DNA of 64,000 nucleotides from Bdellovibrio bacteriovorus (lineage in GTDB: Bacteria > Bdellovibrionota > Bdellovibrionia > Bdellovibrionales > Bdellovibrionaceae): assembly GCF_025558485.1 (NCBI RefSeq), contig NZ_CP102930.1, positions 1,550,001 through 1,614,000 on the forward strand, given 5' to 3'. A program made the position numbers and the translations under genes. The notes under the pieces are model-generated. The model ran no database searches. It was not told the DNA's origin and saw nothing but the letters and a program-made list of their open reading frames with translations. Shown here piece after piece: positions 30,118-38,553 of the stretch. The first letter of the stretch is position 1; every line of letters begins with the position of its first letter.

Positions 30118-31227
30118 CTATATTTCCCCTCTGGATTTGTGCTTTAGGCGCACGCGCAGATCCAGGGAAATTTTTTTCCACTTTTGACGCTCCTCCCGGG
30201 CGACTTCCGGATCGGATTTACGCTGAAAATAACGCAGTTCTCGATCCAAATTTTGAAAACTTTCCCATCTGTCTGTGGAAAGTTCCCCATTTTGCAAAGC
30301 CCGCAGGATGGCGCAGCCCGGTTCAGTTCTATGTTGGCAGTCAGAAAACCGACACTGGGTGGCCAGATCGACAATATCCTCGAACTGACTTTCGAAGCCG
30401 TCGCGATGATCCAGTAAGCCCAGTTCCCGCATCCCGGGGGTGTCCATCAGTAGGGCTCCCGAGGGAAGCTGGTACAGGGAGCGCGACGTCGTGGTGTGTT
30501 TTCCCTTGTCGTCGCTTTCGCGGATGTCCTGGGTCCTGAGCTGATCCTTTTCCAGAAGCACATTTCCCAAAGTGGACTTTCCAACTCCGGAAGACCCCAA
30601 GAGCACCAAACTTTTCCCTGGCGCCAGGTAGGGATTCAGTGTGAGCACCGTTTCCGGTTGGAAGGCGCTGACGGCGTGAACAGGGACGCCCATGTGCTGG
30701 GATTCGACGTCCAGAATCAGGCTGTCAATGTCGTCACAAAGATCTGCCTTCGTCAGAACAATGACAGGGGAGGCGTTGCTTTCCCACGCAAGACTCATAT
30801 AACGATCCAGGCGTTTGAGGTTAAAATCCTGATTCGTCGACATGGTCACAAAGATCGTATCCACGTTGGCGGCCACCACTTGCGCTCGGGCCCCGCTGCC
30901 GGGTTCTTTGCGATAGAAGCAGGATTTTCGTTCCAACACTTCATGGATCAGGGCCTGATCACCGTCCGAGTGCAGTTTGCAAATCACCCAGTCGCCGACG
31001 CCGGGGTATTCCAGGTTGATGTGCTCGTGTTCATAGCGAAACTTGCCGGTCAGTTGGGCTTGGGCTTTTTCAGCACCATCAGCGGTAAAATAAACCACCC
31101 GGTACATTTCGCGTTCTTGGTTGATAATTCGTGCGACCACTTCATCGTTGGCAAGCGGGCGCATTTCCAGTTGTGTCTGGAAAAATACATTCCATCCCCA
31201 TTCGAGGATGCTGTGATTAAAATTCAC
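30118..31227 (-). CDS. rsgA: Small-subunit ribosome biogenesis GTPase RsgA
   Basis: This circularly permuted GTPase helps final maturation of the 30S subunit. An N-terminal OB-fold is followed by the G domain in permuted order: TKADL (G4), then GSSGVGKSTLGN (G1), then DTPGMRELG (G3). The C-terminal zinc-binding part has CRFSDCQHRTEPGC. I chose GTG 31227 (369 residues) because GGAG lies 6 bases upstream. The ATG at 31239 is itself inside that region and directly follows an A/T run with no ribosome-binding site. A leader peptide and terminator-like hairpin precede it. Confidence 0.92.
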   Translation of the reverse strand: MNFNHSILEWGWNVFFQTQLEMRPLANDEVVARIINQEREMYRVVYFTADGAEKAQAQLTGKFRYEHEHINLEYPGVGDWVICKLHSDGDQALIHEVLERKSCFYRKEPGSGARAQVVAANVDTIFVTMSTNQDFNLKRLDRYMSLAWESNASPVIVLTKADLCDDIDSLILDVESQHMGVPVHAVSAFQPETVLTLNPYLAPGKSLVLLGSSGVGKSTLGNVLLEKDQLRTQDIRESDDKGKHTTTSRSLYQLPSGALLMDTPGMRELGLLDHRDGFESQFEDIVDLATQCRFSDCQHRTEPGCAILRALQNGELSTDRWESFQNLDRELRYFQRKSDPEVAREERQKWKKISLDLRVRLKHKSRGEI

Positions 31228-31245
31228 GGATGACTCCATTTAGTT

Positions 31246-31317
31246 AAAAATAAAAAAAAGGAGCTCTCGTGGGGCGAATTTGAAATTTAAATTGAATTAA
31301 ACAGCCGCAGGAGAGCC
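31246..31317 (-). promoter_or_regulatory. Possible attenuator hairpin upstream of rsgA
   Basis: On the minus strand ggctctc (31311-31317) can pair with gagagct (31262-31268), followed by cc and eight T. The left arm lies within the last codons of a 16-codon leader peptide whose stop is in the hairpin loop. This geometry fits translation-controlled termination. The 7-bp stem with its ~40-base loop is modest. Confidence 0.45.
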
Positions 31318-31347
31318 AGCAAATTTGATAGAAGATAGAACAATCAT
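31297..31347 (-). CDS. 16-residue putative leader peptide of rsgA
   Basis: It encodes MIVLSSIKFAGSPAAV, preceded by AAAGGAGGG with 4 bases to the ATG, the strongest ribosome-binding site near rsgA. The last third of the reading frame forms one arm of a terminator-like hairpin. There is no run of a single regulatory amino acid, so if it regulates, it senses translation in general rather than one tRNA. Confidence 0.45.
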   Translation of the reverse strand: MIVLSSIKFAGSPAAV

Positions 31348-31423: not shown

Positions 31424-34400
31424 TCAGTCTGGCAGGAAGTATTCTGCCACACCATAGAATCCGGAAGAATACACCGCGAATATGACCGAGTTGCGCTCGG
31501 GATGATAGAGCAGTCGACGAGCTGAGTCTACACATGACAGGCCTGGCTGGGACCAGCTTAACTGTGATTCTGAGTCAGTTTTCATATCGTATTGGTAAAG
31601 CTTGTTGTTGTTGCAATAGAAGAATCGTTCACGAGTGGCATCGTGGACCTTATTGTCCCAAGCAAAGCCAGTCATGCTTCTAGGGAAGTTCTTATAGGGA
31701 GAAATATCTCCGCCTCGGGTGACCGAATAGATGGTGGAGCTAAACGGAGTCAGCAGCCAACTGTTTGCGGTGGAAGGGTAGGCGCCAGAGAGTCCCCCAT
31801 AGGAGGGAAGGTAGGCCGTAGCGGCAGGGGTTGTCGTTGTTGGGAAAGGCCCATTGGTTCCGGTCACGCCGGCAACATGATACTGTTTGTAAGAGCTGCT
31901 GCTGTCATAGATTTTCAACATGGCATCAACGGTCCCCGAGTTCCAACGGGATTTATGCTGTAACACATCTTTTCCGTCCCAGGCCAGAACCTGGCCGTTG
32001 TAGGCAATGCTGGCCCCGGCGGTGAAGCTGATACTGGCGCCATTAGTTCCATCCGCTGCGGTCGTGAAGGCAGTACCTCCGCCACCGGCAACCAGATTCG
32101 AAGCAAGAGTGCTGTAATCAAGGCGATAAAGCCCGCCTGAATTGCCCCAGAAAATATCGCCAGTGGCAGGATCTGAGGCGAAGTTATAAAGTCCGCCATA
32201 GCCGATATATCGGATGCTGCCACCCAGTTGGAATTCACGAATCGAGTAGTTACCCCAGTCGATGATATAGAACCGATCGCGGGCACCGCCAATGTTTTTA
32301 CCAAACTCAAGGTCCATAATTGAACTGATACGAGCATTGGTGGAGCGATCGCCATCACCAGAGGTGAGGCCCTGACCAAACACTGTCAGGATTTTGTTGT
32401 CACTATCTATGGTGCGGATCAAACCTTTTTCCATAAAGAAGATCTGTCCGGTTTTGGAAATGAAGACATCGTTGAGCATAAGCGCACAACTTGTTTTGGG
32501 CGTTCCATCGGGACAGATGGCCCTTGAGCCGCTGGTGGTGCCTAATAGCAATGTGAGCGAGTTCGTGTCTGGATCCCATGAATAAAGTCCACTACGGTCG
32601 TGCGCCACCACATAGAATTTGCCATCCATCCCGGTCATCAACCACGGGTGGTAAGGGAAGGCAATGTCATAAGGGGCCATAGTGGAGTAAGTTTGATTAT
32701 GACTTCCATTCAGGAAATCCAAGCGGGCGTAACTTTGCTGATCGTTCCCCAGCACCAGATAGTAAATCATGGCCAGCATGTGCTCGACGGCTGAGGTTGT
32801 TGGGTTGAATTTTACGTGAATAGCTCTGGGATAGCGAGTGTAACCACCCTGAGGGGTCCACGGCGCGCTGGCATTGGTGTCAAAGCCCGGCCCTTGAGTC
32901 TGGATACGCTCTACCTTCTGAGTTGCTGCAACATAATGCTGGAAGATGCCATTGCCGCTGCTGGAAGCGCGGAGGTACATGTCACCGTTGGGAAGCACGG
33001 TCCAGCCAACGGTGGCATCATCATAGGCCGCAAGCTTTATCTGATTCCAGTCGACTTGTGTCTCCATCGGATCAGTACTTGCTCCACCGCCAAGAATGGT
33101 GGTGATAGTATTGGTGTTAAGATCCACGCGACGAATGCGATCAGAGTCCCAGATCAGCAGTCCGTTGTTGTAATCAAGCCTCAAGGCTTCTGGGTATTTC
33201 AAAGTTGCAGAGGTGGCTGGGCCCCCATCGCCACTGGATGTTCCAGTTGTTGGAATGAATTTATCAATGACTCCCGTGGCCGGATTGATCCACAACAGTC
33301 CATCGACTTGATCCCGAACAAAGACACGTCCGTCATCAGCAAAAATCAAACCGCCTGAATCCAGGGTGTAGCCCGATGTTTGGCTGCCGGTTCTGAAGGT
33401 GTAACCCATGGCGCTGCCTTTGAGTCCGGAGCCGATATTGCCGGCGATAATCTGCAGATTGTCGTCATTGAAGCCGGAGGAACGCGCAAAGGTTTTTAGT
33501 CCCAAGGTATCCTTTGCCGTCACACGAATCGAAAAGTATCCCGTAGTCGGCGCATTCGTCCATGTGTAACACCCGGTGGAGGAGTCTTGATTGGTGCAAC
33601 CTCCATTGATGGCATTCGGAAGATTCTGGGCGCCAGTGATATCAATGAAATTCACTTCATCTGTCGTATAAGACAGCGAAATTGGATTGGCGGCCAGTCC
33701 TTCAAGGTCGGAGGCGTTCCAGCGGATATAGACGGTTTTCTGACTGACGCTGGTTTTAAGTTGTGACTTCAGCGGTGGAGACGATGGAACATCGACATTC
33801 GCGGCAATGACGTCCTTAACCACGGGCGGTGTGCCGGGATCAAAGTAAATTGATTTTTTATCGACGCCGTCACTGCCACTGTTTGCAGAGATGTTGCCGG
33901 CTTCATCCATCACCCAGACGTAGACAGTGTAGGATTGCTTCGTGAAACCCAAAAGATAGTAGATTCCGTCAGCCGGAGTGATTGAGACTGTTTGTGATTG
34001 CAGCCCCGTTGCCAAAGTCGTCCAGCAGGGGGCGTTGTCCGCAGGTGTGGCCGGAGTTCCAATACTGGAGCTAAGGAAGCACACGCGATTCACTTTGCTG
34101 AAAGAATCTGCAGCATTAAGGCTGATTTGAACGTTGTTGTTCGAGGTGTTGGCAGCACCATTGTTCAGATTAAAGCTGCTGATAGTTGGCTTGGAGTTGT
34201 CAATTTTGAATGTCCAGACCGCACTGGCGGAGTTCCCGGCAAGATCAGTGAAGGAGACTCGGACTTTGGCTGCGGCCTGGGACACATTGGGCAGACTTAA
34301 GCTGGTATTAAAAGGTCTGTTGCTCAGAGGACCATTGGCTGCAGAAACCGCGGGTTGAGCAGCATAGTTGCTACCATCAGAGGCCAGTTCAATGACAAAG

Positions 34401-37400
34401 TTCTGGGAACTGGAAGTGTTTTGTTCGGTGAGAAGCCAAGAGAAGGTGGCTGAACTGTTACCCTGGAAAATGGATGCTGAGCTGAAAGTAAAAGATGGTG
34501 CCACTGTATCCAGTGTGAAAGTGGCAGGTGCACTCACGGCACTGACGTTGCCGACGGCATCCATAGCAAAAGCATAAACTGTCTTCAGACCATCCCCGAT
34601 GCTGGTTGTAAATACTTTGCTGGCAGCGCAAGGGGTCCAGCTAGGATCGTTCGCTAAGGGCACGGTGGCACTTTCAGAGAAAAGCATTTTAACCGCATCA
34701 CCGCTGCATCCGGCAATGTTCATCGTAATTGAGTTTGCATTGCTATAAGCATTGCTGGTGCGAGTGAGCACAAGCGAGCCAGGAGCTGTGGAGTCGACAG
34801 TCAGATTGGAACTGGAGGCGGCAGAGTTGCTCCAGCCTGCTGAGTCGATGGCTGAAACACGAATTTTAACCTGGGAGGAGTTGATAGTGCTCGGTATTGT
34901 CCAGGCATAGGTCCCAGATGCAGAACGAGCTGTGGCAATACTGTTCCAACTGGTGCCACCGTCAGTGGTGTAGTCAATGCTGACAGGAGAACCTGCCAAA
35001 GAAATATTGTCAGAAGAACTCCAGCTGATGCTTTGAAGCGAGCCGCCTTGATATGTTCCCGAGTTCATCGAAGTCAGATTGACTGATGGAACCGTGTTGT
35101 CCACGGTGAAGGCCAGGGTGGAGAGCGTCTGACTGAAGTTGCCAACGGCATCGTAAGCAGACAGTCGAACCAGCATGGTGGAGGAGTCAAGGGAAGGCAG
35201 CGTCCAAGCATAGCAGCCACTGCTTCCGCCGGGTATGCTGCAGCCACCGGTGGAGCCATTGATTGCGCCGGAGGAGAGTGTTGTCCAGGTGCTGCCGTTG
35301 TTGGAGCTGTATTCAATAGCTACGGGGCTTCCGGCAAGAGCAAAGTTGTCAGAGGAGTTCCAGGCGATAGCCTCGCTGCTGCCAGCTTTGAAAATCCCAA
35401 AGTTAAAGTTACTCAGTGAAATTGTCGGCGCCGCTGAGTCGATAACCAGCGCGGCAGAGGAGGTTGCAGTTTTACTATTACCAGAACTGTCAGTGGCCTT
35501 GGCGCGAACCAGGACTTGGTTTGAGTTTATCAGGGGTAAAGTCCATGAATAACATCCACTGCTACCACCGGGAACCACACACGCGTCGTTGGCTGCGTTA
35601 TCAAGAGTGTTTGCAATGGAATTCCAGGTCAGGCCGTTGTCGCTGGAATAGTCAAGGCTGATGGCTCCGCTATTGAGGCCGACATCATCCGAAGCATTCC
35701 ATGTGATCGCCTGGACGGAGCCTCCTTTAAAGCTGCCGCTGTTAAACGAGGTCAGAGAAAGAGTCGGGGCATTGCTGTCGATGCCAAAAGCGGCAGAGGT
35801 GATCGAGGAAGAGTTCCCGGCCATATCAATTGCAATGAGTCTTATTTTTGAACCCGCGGTATTGACGGCGGGCGGAGTCCAAAGATAACTGGTACTTCCA
35901 GCGGCGGGTGTGGCGATGTCCGTAAAAGTTAATCCATCTTGGGCAAACTGCAATGTTAATGAAGAAATATTGTTGGTATCACTGGCTGAAAATTGCAGAT
36001 TGAAAGGGGTGGCACCCTGGATAGTGGCTGGCAGATTGGTCAGGGATAATGTTGGCACAGTGGAGTCCACAGTCAGACTTCCCGACGAGACAGATGAGGC
36101 CGCCAAGCCGACTTTGTCGGTGGCCGTAACACGAACTTTGACTGTGTTGGAGTCAATACTTGGAACTGTCCAGAGATATACGCCTGAGTTGCTAAGGCCT
36201 GAGGCGATGGAGGTCCAAGAGCTGCCGTTATTGGTAGAGTATTCCAAGGCAATAGGAGAACTGCTCAGTCCTCCCGCATCGCTGGCTGTCCAAGAGAACG
36301 TTTGGGTCGATCCACCTTTGTAAAGGCCGCTGTTCAGCGAGGTCAGTGCCACGACGGGCACAACAGTGTCATGGGTGAACTCCACTAAAGAATATGACGA
36401 AATATTCCCGGCCAGATCTCGCAGCCAGCCATAGATATTGTGAGTTCCCTGGTTTGCGGGGATTGTGTAGGTGTGGGTGCCTCCCGCAGTGCAGGTCTGC
36501 CAACGGCTGTCACCAAGGCCAGGCTGCAGAGTGGAGTCTGTGAAAATGATCTGAGACGCGGCCTTATTGCAGTTTTGGTTGGTTAAAGAAACGCTGGTGG
36601 ACTGAGACGGAGTCACAGTATTTAAGGAAAGTACGGGAGGGTTTGGAGCCGTGCTAGAGATATTAAAGGCTGCACTTGTTGAAGTGTTGATATTGCCAGC
36701 ATTGTCGATGGCGACCAGTCGGATTTTGACTCCGCTGGCGTCCAGAGTTGGAACCCGCCATTGATAAGAGGTTGCTGAAGAAGCAAGTGTTGCGACATCC
36801 GTGAAGGTGCTGCCGTCTTCGGCAATTTGCAAGGTGAGCGAGGCAATTCCATAAGAATCGGTGGCGGAATAGGTAAGATCCACCAAAGAATTTCCCTGCA
36901 GGTTGGCCGAGCTTAATGCTGTCAGAGAGACCGCCGGAGCTTGTCGATCCAGCGTGAAGGTCACTTGGGTTGGGAAGGTGGAGATCGTCTTGCTGGCATC
37001 CAGGGCCCACAGTTTCAGGATGATCGGACCATCTTCGGAAGTCAGAGTATAGTTGACGGTTTGAGTCCCTGCGGTGTTGCAGATGATGTTGTAAGCAGAC
37101 TCGTTGGTCGGTGCAATGGCAGCATTTTCCGTCAGCGCTAGTGACGAAAACGACTCGCAGTTGGTTAAAGAGGCGCCTGTATTGAGATTTAGGACGACAT
37201 TTGCTGAGTTGACAAACGCCCCTGTTGGCGTGGCTTTGGTGAAGGTCGGGGAGGTTGGTGGAATTGTGTTGTCAACTTGTACGTTAAAAGTGCGAGTCCA
37301 AATAGGTTTTGTCGTGTCAACTTTTCCGGAGCCGTCATCACGACCCAGGGTGATCTTCATGGTGTGCGAACCTTGGAAGTTGGCCGAAAGGACCTTGCTG

Positions 37401-38182
37401 AAGGAGGGAGCGCTGGTATGGGAGACCACTTGACCATCCAGTTCCCACTTGTAGATTGTCAGATAGTTTGAAGACCAGTGCTGAGTTTCCACTATCGGGG
37501 CCAGCGTTTGTCCCTCACCGAAGCTCGAGGTTACTGTCATTTTTTTGATATCAGGAGTGATGTCTTCAACTTTTTCAACGTTAAAGCCAAAGACCTTCAA
37601 AAACTCGGCAGAAAGGGCTGGGGAGTTTTTGATTTCGAGGTAGGTGCCCTCCAGAGATGGCAGACCATATTCACTTTCAATCGTTTGCAGGCGTGCGACA
37701 AAATTTCCCAGTGCCGTCTTGTCAATAACACTTTTGGAGATACCATGGAAGGCTGCTACCGCCAGAGCTTGCTCGGTGAGTTCGCTTCCGAGTGAAATGT
37801 TTTGATTCTCCATGCCCGTCAAGGGGCGACTGAAGCTGGAGTCACAATTGTTCATCACAGCTTTGTATTGAAGACTTCCATTTTTCAAACTGTCTCGGTC
37901 TGCTTCGCTGATGCTGAATGAATAGTTTCCGTTGCTTGAAACAGAAACGGTCTGCAGGGCTGCCGGATTGTCACCGCGATAGAGTGAGACGCTAGCGGAG
38001 CATCCAAGACCAATGTAGGAACCTAGGTTTTTTAGAATGCCGGTGGAAAATTGACTTTCAGGAAGAATGATCTTTCCAGAGATTATCGAAGGGGAAATAT
38101 CGGTCAGCGTCGCCTGAATATTACACGCTGTTTGGCTCAAGATGAGACAAATTATGATTAAAAAACGTCCCAGAATTTCCAT
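31424..38182 (-). CDS. Giant lipoprotein with repeated Ig-like domains and a C-terminal NHL-type propeller
   Basis: This protein has 2252 residues. It starts MEILGRFLIIICLILS with a lipobox ending QTAC, so it is exported and lipid-anchored. After ~200 unique residues come roughly ten to twelve ~90-residue Ig-like repeats, recognised by recurring phrases such as VDSTVPTLSLT, IRLIAIDMAGN, YSTNNGSSWTSI and GSSGCYSWTLP. The last ~650 residues contain NHL/propeller-like repeats (GTSSGDGGPATSATLKYPEA, GDGDRSTNARISSIMDLEFG). ATG 38182 places the start right before the lipobox signal; a TTG 81 bases upstream is unlikely. Probably a surface adhesin or stalk; the function in prey contact is inference. 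Confidence 0.85.
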   Translation of the reverse strand: MEILGRFLIIICLILSQTACNIQATLTDISPSIISGKIILPESQFSTGILKNLGSYIGLGCSASVSLYRGDNPAALQTVSVSSNGNYSFSISEADRDSLKNGSLQYKAVMNNCDSSFSRPLTGMENQNISLGSELTEQALAVAAFHGISKSVIDKTALGNFVARLQTIESEYGLPSLEGTYLEIKNSPALSAEFLKVFGFNVEKVEDITPDIKKMTVTSSFGEGQTLAPIVETQHWSSNYLTIYKWELDGQVVSHTSAPSFSKVLSANFQGSHTMKITLGRDDGSGKVDTTKPIWTRTFNVQVDNTIPPTSPTFTKATPTGAFVNSANVVLNLNTGASLTNCESFSSLALTENAAIAPTNESAYNIICNTAGTQTVNYTLTSEDGPIILKLWALDASKTISTFPTQVTFTLDRQAPAVSLTALSSANLQGNSLVDLTYSATDSYGIASLTLQIAEDGSTFTDVATLASSATSYQWRVPTLDASGVKIRLVAIDNAGNINTSTSAAFNISSTAPNPPVLSLNTVTPSQSTSVSLTNQNCNKAASQIIFTDSTLQPGLGDSRWQTCTAGGTHTYTIPANQGTHNIYGWLRDLAGNISSYSLVEFTHDTVVPVVALTSLNSGLYKGGSTQTFSWTASDAGGLSSSPIALEYSTNNGSSWTSIASGLSNSGVYLWTVPSIDSNTVKVRVTATDKVGLAASSVSSGSLTVDSTVPTLSLTNLPATIQGATPFNLQFSASDTNNISSLTLQFAQDGLTFTDIATPAAGSTSYLWTPPAVNTAGSKIRLIAIDMAGNSSSITSAAFGIDSNAPTLSLTSFNSGSFKGGSVQAITWNASDDVGLNSGAISLDYSSDNGLTWNSIANTLDNAANDACVVPGGSSGCYSWTLPLINSNQVLVRAKATDSSGNSKTATSSAALVIDSAAPTISLSNFNFGIFKAGSSEAIAWNSSDNFALAGSPVAIEYSSNNGSTWTTLSSGAINGSTGGCSIPGGSSGCYAWTLPSLDSSTMLVRLSAYDAVGNFSQTLSTLAFTVDNTVPSVNLTSMNSGTYQGGSLQSISWSSSDNISLAGSPVSIDYTTDGGTSWNSIATARSASGTYAWTIPSTINSSQVKIRVSAIDSAGWSNSAASSSNLTVDSTAPGSLVLTRTSNAYSNANSITMNIAGCSGDAVKMLFSESATVPLANDPSWTPCAASKVFTTSIGDGLKTVYAFAMDAVGNVSAVSAPATFTLDTVAPSFTFSSASIFQGNSSATFSWLLTEQNTSSSQNFVIELASDGSNYAAQPAVSAANGPLSNRPFNTSLSLPNVSQAAAKVRVSFTDLAGNSASAVWTFKIDNSKPTISSFNLNNGAANTSNNNVQISLNAADSFSKVNRVCFLSSSIGTPATPADNAPCWTTLATGLQSQTVSITPADGIYYLLGFTKQSYTVYVWVMDEAGNISANSGSDGVDKKSIYFDPGTPPVVKDVIAANVDVPSSPPLKSQLKTSVSQKTVYIRWNASDLEGLAANPISLSYTTDEVNFIDITGAQNLPNAINGGCTNQDSSTGCYTWTNAPTTGYFSIRVTAKDTLGLKTFARSSGFNDDNLQIIAGNIGSGLKGSAMGYTFRTGSQTSGYTLDSGGLIFADDGRVFVRDQVDGLLWINPATGVIDKFIPTTGTSSGDGGPATSATLKYPEALRLDYNNGLLIWDSDRIRRVDLNTNTITTILGGGASTDPMETQVDWNQIKLAAYDDATVGWTVLPNGDMYLRASSSGNGIFQHYVAATQKVERIQTQGPGFDTNASAPWTPQGGYTRYPRAIHVKFNPTTSAVEHMLAMIYYLVLGNDQQSYARLDFLNGSHNQTYSTMAPYDIAFPYHPWLMTGMDGKFYVVAHDRSGLYSWDPDTNSLTLLLGTTSGSRAICPDGTPKTSCALMLNDVFISKTGQIFFMEKGLIRTIDSDNKILTVFGQGLTSGDGDRSTNARISSIMDLEFGKNIGGARDRFYIIDWGNYSIREFQLGGSIRYIGYGGLYNFASDPATGDIFWGNSGGLYRLDYSTLASNLVAGGGGTAFTTAADGTNGASISFTAGASIAYNGQVLAWDGKDVLQHKSRWNSGTVDAMLKIYDSSSSYKQYHVAGVTGTNGPFPTTTTPAATAYLPSYGGLSGAYPSTANSWLLTPFSSTIYSVTRGGDISPYKNFPRSMTGFAWDNKVHDATRERFFYCNNNKLYQYDMKTDSESQLSWSQPGLSCVDSARRLLYHPERNSVIFAVYSSGFYGVAEYFLPD

Positions 38183-38553
38183 GACGAAGTTATCGGCAGC
38201 AAAGAAGAAGTGCTGAAGGTTTATTGGATTAAGATGAAGATATCTCCAGAGAAGGCTTCGCAAATGTGTTCTATCTTATTCCGTGAAGAGTGTAATACCT
38301 GCGCCCAGGTCTTGCGACCAGCGTCCCAGAAATGTCCCTAGCTTAAAAAAGCGTAAAAAAGTTGAGCTGTGGCACATACGCAAGCCACACCTCAAGGTGC
38401 GCCAGTTCGGGGTTAATGTCCTTGAGCTGCGATTTAGTGTGACTGGACGGGGATTGGATAGGAGTGGCACTGAAGCTGCAAGACCTCACTTTGTCAGCAG
38501 ACTAAGTAAAAAGTTAACCATCGGCGAAAGCCAAATGAACAAAGGATAATCTT
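38183..38553. other. Intergenic region between divergent genes, no convincing gene
   Basis: This 371-base stretch separates the giant lipoprotein from a small exported protein and should hold both promoters. It contains a GC-rich middle part (about 38360-38470) with ORFs on both strands, of which neither has a ribosome-binding site or a recognisable family. I see no tRNA, repeat or clear promoter. Confidence 0.5.

Follow-up and report, generated by a model that had tools for sequence, protein, structure and literature searches.

The stretch of Bdellovibrio bacteriovorus DNA analysed here (64,000 nucleotides, hereafter the window) contains a short open reading frame and a potential hairpin between rsgA, the gene for a ribosome-assembly GTPase, and its likely promoter. 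This arrangement raises the question of whether rsgA expression responds to translation and, if so, by which mechanism and in which direction. The original prediction had proposed a leader-peptide attenuator that ties rsgA expression to translation, and the conservation of the leader in relatives supports such a link. According to our analysis, the rsgA leader is probably a ribosome-controlled translational attenuator of the erm type.

The gene itself (30118-31227, minus strand) encodes a member of the RsgA/YjeQ/EngC family of GTPases (PF03193, E 9.5e-52), which act in the maturation of the 30S subunit. Its translation carries GSSGVGKS as the G1 motif (GxxGVGKS), DTPGMRE (DTPG) and the Cys/His zinc site CRFSDCQHRTEPGC. 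Judged by conservation, rsgA starts with the GTG at 31227-31225, behind the GGAG at 31237-31234; an ATG at 31239, 12 nt 5' of this GTG, is not conserved and is absent in L006-L013. Within the lineage of the window, rsgA is the sole RsgA gene in the genome. A full-length match to it is absent from the near-complete genus genomes G004, G010, G012, G013, G022, G024 and G025, and the ribosome-assembly GTPase is thus dispensable in this lineage.

The predicted leader open reading frame with a good ribosome-binding site is indeed present upstream of rsgA. On the minus strand at 31347-31297, the sequence ATGATTGTTCTATCTTCTATCAAATTTGCTGGCTCTCCTGCGGCTGTTTAA encodes the peptide MIVLSSIKFAGSPAAV in 16 codons followed by TAA, preceded by the strong Shine-Dalgarno sequence AAAGGAGGG; its assignment as a leader is based on the sequence together with the leader reading frames of relatives. 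The promoter expected upstream of it is likely the site at 31404-31376 of the same strand, in which TTGCAT (31404-31399) and AATACT (31381-31376) are separated by 17 nt. Read by eye, L002-L004 have TTGCAT-N17-CATACT or TTGCTT-N17-GATACT at the same place. The gene upstream, which ends at 31424, 77 nt before the leader, is a 2279-aa putative lipoprotein-like reading frame on the strand of the leader (31424-38263) and combines repeated Ig-like domains with a propeller of the NHL type.

Four segments of the leader transcript, all on the minus strand, can form alternative pairs. Segment 1 is the leader Shine-Dalgarno sequence AGGAGGGCU (31357-31349), which pairs with segment 2 in 9 pairs (-15.4 kcal/mol) that covary between clades. 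Segment 2, the left arm GGCTCTCCTGCGGC at 31317-31304, lies within the leader reading frame and can pair with segment 1 or with segment 3, the right arm (GCC..CC..GAGAGCUCC) at 31275-31260. The latter can alternatively pair with segment 4 (31237-31229), which consists of the GGAG of rsgA (31237-31234) and its flank. A run of eight T follows segment 3 (31259-31252) and is located within the loop of the helix between segments 3 and 4. Folded alone, a 136-nt region of the window is no better than its shuffled versions (z -0.49), so that the case for these structures rests on comparison. The window contains, on both strands, seven reading frames of 12 to 22 codons preceded by a Shine-Dalgarno sequence, and the rsgA leader alone among them reaches both -13 kcal/mol or lower for the helix between segments 1 and 2 (1:2) and -15 kcal/mol or lower for that between segments 2 and 3 (2:3). 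Likewise, the rsgA leader was the single place in the window genome matched by a covariance model of the leader.

For the comparison, rsgA was fetched from the family and the order, and 62 upstream regions were inspected. Conservation in related species had been suggested as a check of the leader and the hairpin, and both are present in all 17 gene-bearing genomes of the genus. Across the order, a leader reading frame of 12-22 codons with Shine-Dalgarno sequence and arms was found in 33/62 upstream regions, a number from which three more leaders of similar look (L029, L030 and L050) were left out; such a leader is missing in 26/62. The covariance model of the genus leaders gave a single match per genome, located at rsgA, and none in genus members lacking the gene; the divergent leaders L019, L023 and L026 of G015, G017 and G007 were missed by the model and counted by eye. 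When the same lineage was searched for other genes using the leader, the model gave only rsgA leaders above noise. Weak extra matches in G098 and G076 were dismissed, as their surroundings are unrelated. At the Rfam gathering threshold there was no match at the window leader or at the leaders of L003, L019 and L064, nor did Rfam match the five Bacilli leaders L077, L098, L104, L031 and L039. In the relative that carries L019, a purine riboswitch (RF00167, 47.7 bits; L019 166-263) lies about 1 kb 5' of the rsgA leader.

The three helices 1:2, 2:3 and 3:4 are mutually exclusive, and all of them recur across the leaders. Their covariation was assessed by clade-wise permutation, in which one representative per clade with non-overlapping segments was used and own arms were compared with arms of other clades in 5000 permutations. 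Own arms gave -13.5 against -10.9 for permuted arms in helix 1:2 and -17.5 against -12.1 in helix 2:3 (0/5000 in both cases; the window helix 2:3 has -18.9). Helix 3:4 is the most weakly supported of the three, with -10.1 against -8.5 (p 0.014), and was not better than shuffles at the 5% level in 13 of 29 leaders. The arms vary by clade with pairing kept, as in GGAGGGCU/AGCUCUCC, GGAGGUCUUU/AAGGGCCUUC, GGAGGGCC/GGUCCUCU, GGAGGUCAC/GUGAUCUCU, GGAGAGC/GCUCUCC, GGAGGCUCU/AGGGCCUCU and GGAGGAC/GUCCUCC; in the pair GAGGGCUGC/GCAGCUCUC of L014, GC is inserted and pairing is likewise kept. At position +5 from the first G of the Shine-Dalgarno sequence, which is itself not part of that motif, helix 1:2 shows six pair types (G-C, G-U, U-G, A-U, C-G and U-A), although this census counts formed pairs only and the permutation is the real test. 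Up to 11 nucleotides of arm 2 are common to helices 1:2 and 2:3 across the leaders, and 8 in the window. Between segments 3 and 4 an A/U hairpin is often seen by eye, whose sequence varies by clade (CUCUGA/UCAGAG in L005, UUUCA/UGAAA in L017, UUAUC/GAUAA in L020). An outlying clade (L059, L060, L067 and L075), in which arm 3 also lies inside the leader reading frame, is not covered by this simple model.

How ribosomes might act on these structures was modelled by constrained folding of 33 leaders, in which either the leader start, corresponding to a held ribosome, or the leader stop was masked. Masking of the start raised the expected number of 2:3 pairs from a mean of 9.2 to 14.9 (32/33 leaders) and lowered the pairing of segment 3 with the rsgA Shine-Dalgarno sequence from 0.62 to 0.42 (28/33). 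With the stop masked, 2:3 amounted to 0.8 pairs and the pairing of segment 3 with the Shine-Dalgarno sequence to 0.71, higher than in the start-masked state in 27 of the 33 leaders. The calculated opening of the Shine-Dalgarno sequence is modest: its mean unpaired value is 0.22 in the start-masked state, compared with 0.15 and 0.16 for the two others. These folds suggest that a leader with a ribosome held at its start is open, and that an empty leader or one through which ribosomes run is closed.

The direction of control that we infer from this modelling would be as follows. In a leader without a ribosome, the leader Shine-Dalgarno sequence would pair with arm 2, leaving arm 3 to pair with the rsgA Shine-Dalgarno sequence, so that rsgA would be closed. 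Ribosomes running freely to the leader stop would cover arm 2, and helix 3:4 would shut rsgA again. Only a ribosome arrested on the start or the first codons of the leader would mask arm 1 and free arm 2, whereupon 2:3 would form and the rsgA Shine-Dalgarno sequence would open. Slow initiation or slow early elongation would thus lead to the synthesis of RsgA. The original prediction, in which a ribosome at the leader stop turns rsgA on, probably had the sign reversed, since stop-masked folding favours a closed Shine-Dalgarno sequence. The physiological signal would be translation stress, caused by an antibiotic or by defective 30S subunits.

A similar layout was found in distant relatives. Bacilli orthologues of the window RsgA are about 45% identical to it and are second RsgA genes, as a canonical RsgA of about 290-332 aa is also present in 6/6 Bacilli genomes searched. 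In the tree, a single FastTree run with several weak internal supports, the clade of the window's RsgA includes the Bacilli paralogues, with the canonical RsgA of Bacilli placed far outside it (branch 1.95). The paralogue is present in 110 of 151 sampled genomes from the family of Cytobacillus oceanisediminis. Its leaders have about 18-24 codons and the same layout of four segments: helix 1:2 joins the leader Shine-Dalgarno sequence GGGUGAAGUG with CAC.AGCCC, helix 2:3 (CACAGCCCA with UGGGCUGUG) forms an antiterminator, and helix 3:4 (CCAUGGGC...GCCUAUGG), followed by U6, forms a terminator. The computed pairings of L031, L033, L080 and L100, which started from an incorrect upstream ATG, were left out of this comparison. 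Read by eye, arm 3 GUAUCCUUCC of Bacillus sp. 165 (L031) lies opposite the Shine-Dalgarno sequence GGGAGGAUAC and not in a terminator. Leaders also precede a Brevibacillus plasmid copy (L153; 1:2 and 2:3 supported) and a Listeria copy (L156; 2:3 and 3:4 supported). No convincing leader was seen in Vibrio, Pseudoalteromonas, Roseomonas and Gemmatirosa. Plasmid-borne relatives in Leptolyngbya, Peptoclostridium and Streptomyces have leaders, most pairings of which were no better than shuffles; these leaders were not counted as evidence. As judged from the sequences, the layout appears to go with this branch of RsgA, and the output module, a block of the Shine-Dalgarno sequence or a terminator, appears to be exchanged.

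Some further observations were made on these relatives. A conserved leader-peptide transcription attenuator precedes the second RsgA of Bacillaceae (L077-L106 and L031-L043). The Listeria monocytogenes copy (L156 798-1838), labelled as plasmid, adjoins pnp and has an 18-codon leader (MAIVKMENLIINTGVFYL) together with an arm capable of pairing with the rsgA Shine-Dalgarno sequence; given the pnp neighbour, the record looks like a piece of chromosome. The plasmid-borne paralogues L154 (1898-2323) and L155 (1897-2322) lie directly before a fosfomycin-resistance gene of the fosB/fosM type. A fosfomycin-resistance gene next to a plasmid copy in Lysinibacillus is a possible lead to function. L155, a Stenotrophomonas record, resembles Bacilli in its leader and gene, and its assembly may be mislabelled or contaminated.

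The erm and cat attenuators (ermC, ermB) share with the rsgA leader a short leader reading frame with a strong Shine-Dalgarno sequence and the exclusive helices 1:2, 2:3 and 3:4. Segment 4 is in each case the Shine-Dalgarno sequence of the downstream gene, which an early-held ribosome would open. Segment 1 of erm consists of leader codons, whereas that of the rsgA leader is the leader's own Shine-Dalgarno sequence. Furthermore, and unlike erm, the rsgA leader has a GTPase of the RsgA family as its target, lacks a conserved peptide stall motif and belongs to a lineage that is not a Gram-positive pathogen. For ermC, translation attenuation has been described to control access to the ribosome-binding site (PMC6310831). 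HflXr (Listeria lmo0762), a ribosome-associated GTPase present as a second copy, is preceded by a 14-aa leader with alternative RNA structures, is induced by lincomycin and erythromycin and gives resistance (PMC6310831). The plan of this transcription attenuator is matched by the Bacilli rsgA paralogues with a terminator; in contrast to HflXr, rsgA is present as a single copy in the lineage of the window and its predicted control is translational. The VmlR, MsrD and BmrCD leaders attenuate genes for ribosome protection or drug transport in a ribosome-mediated manner (PMC9226507, PMC10314930, PMC4191407); genes and leaders differ from those of rsgA, and the inducer is known there. In Streptomyces, the mRNA of an RsgA/EngC paralogue (SCO6149, as opposed to SCO5211) increases with tetracycline in a WblC-dependent manner (PMC7157823). 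SCO6149, at most a candidate member of the window's RsgA subfamily, is controlled by a transcription factor, unlike the predicted leader control of rsgA.

The same switch might also respond to another signal, namely the 30S pool. Immature 30S subunits that sit on the leader Shine-Dalgarno sequence without advancing would free arm 2 and raise RsgA, resulting in a homeostatic feedback rather than drug induction. As segment 1 is the leader Shine-Dalgarno sequence, a bound, non-elongating 30S subunit should suffice; the established role of the family in 30S maturation and the presence of only one RsgA in the genomes of this lineage also fit. We nevertheless consider this reading rather unlikely, because the genus members without rsgA argue against an essential homeostat, and the leader of Bacilli is found on the second and not on the housekeeping RsgA.

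The original prediction had taken helix 2:3 and the eight T for an intrinsic terminator that a ribosome at the leader stop would prevent from forming, so that active translation of the leader would switch rsgA on. Pairing of GGCTCTCCTGCGGC with GCCCCACGAGAGCTCC, after which eight T follow, is possible as described, and the stem of -18.9 is stable; however, its loop of about 28 nt is long and A/T-rich, and a terminator-like site was looked for at this hairpin and not found. Only in the window species is the stem directly followed by CC and eight T. The nearest relatives keep the arms and differ at the T tract (GAGAGCTCCTGAATTTTAATTTT, GAGAGCTCCGCTTTATTTTT, GAATTTTAATTTT, GCTTTATTTTT, ATTTTTCTATT), which makes a terminator unlikely at the window locus. 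True terminators, with a GC-rich hairpin and a conserved U tract, do occur at the corresponding place in the Bacilli orthologues, but there 2:3 is the antiterminator. Nor would a terminator account for why arm 3 covaries with the rsgA Shine-Dalgarno sequence. We therefore regard transcription termination in the window as improbable, and pairing of arm 3 with the rsgA Shine-Dalgarno sequence takes its place in the erm-type reading.

Sensing of a specific amino acid or of a nascent-peptide effector, as in trp-type or arrest-peptide attenuation, is considerably less probable still. Many leaders begin with MIV, which could hint at sequence-specific stalling, but the peptides are otherwise unrelated (MIVTFFKSNNSSLGFKS, MSHQSVIKGLLSHLN, MIVKIKECVISLFRSLI, MNVNTLNRRMALRLLNS), there is no run of a single amino acid, and a single clade has MSHQSV, MHILSV, MNMFKF and MKNLKS. 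The reading frame of arm 2 also differs between leaders, for example between L001 and L002. A protein-stall reading was rejected in view of these differences in peptides and frames, which indicate that translation of the leader matters and not the peptide. Under the erm-type reading, selection appears to maintain translation of the leader and the pairing of its arms, whatever the peptide sequence. Finally, a spurious, non-regulatory reading frame that happens to cover the terminator and 3' end of the preceding gene has hardly any chance of being correct: that gene stops just 77 nt before the leader, but the sequence upstream differs among relatives (in L003 a separate terminator, GGGAACCCGCAAGGTTCCCTTTTTT, lies 5' of the promoter) while the leader and the covarying arms stay.

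In agreement with the original prediction, no attenuation of rsgA was found in the open-access literature, the scope of our search. As far as checked, the class of mechanism is known; not described before are its target gene, the role of the leader Shine-Dalgarno sequence as segment 1 and an association of this kind across phyla. The anatomy of the leader, the precedent of HflXr and the tetracycline-induced Streptomyces paralogue point, by analogy, to a subfamily of RsgA that may be inducible by translation stress. We tentatively extend this to a widespread RsgA subfamily that is distinct from the housekeeping enzyme and might be induced in response to inhibited early translation. This subfamily, a 30S counterpart to HflXr, would be controlled by leader-peptide attenuators in different phyla; in the lineage of the window, the leader Shine-Dalgarno sequence might sense a 30S subunit or 70S ribosome that does not advance from the start codon, whatever the peptide. 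With a Shine-Dalgarno sequence as its sensor, the switch would respond to initiation itself.

The rsgA leader would be a compact attenuator supported by covariation outside the Gram-positive pathogens in which this class is usually studied; comparable switches precede inducible antibiotic-resistance genes and, in distant bacteria, a related gene. If our reading is right, this branch of RsgA would be induced when ribosomes stall at start codons, and it could then be tested whether the RsgA paralogues help cells to survive antibiotics that target the ribosome or serve to repair 30S subunits.
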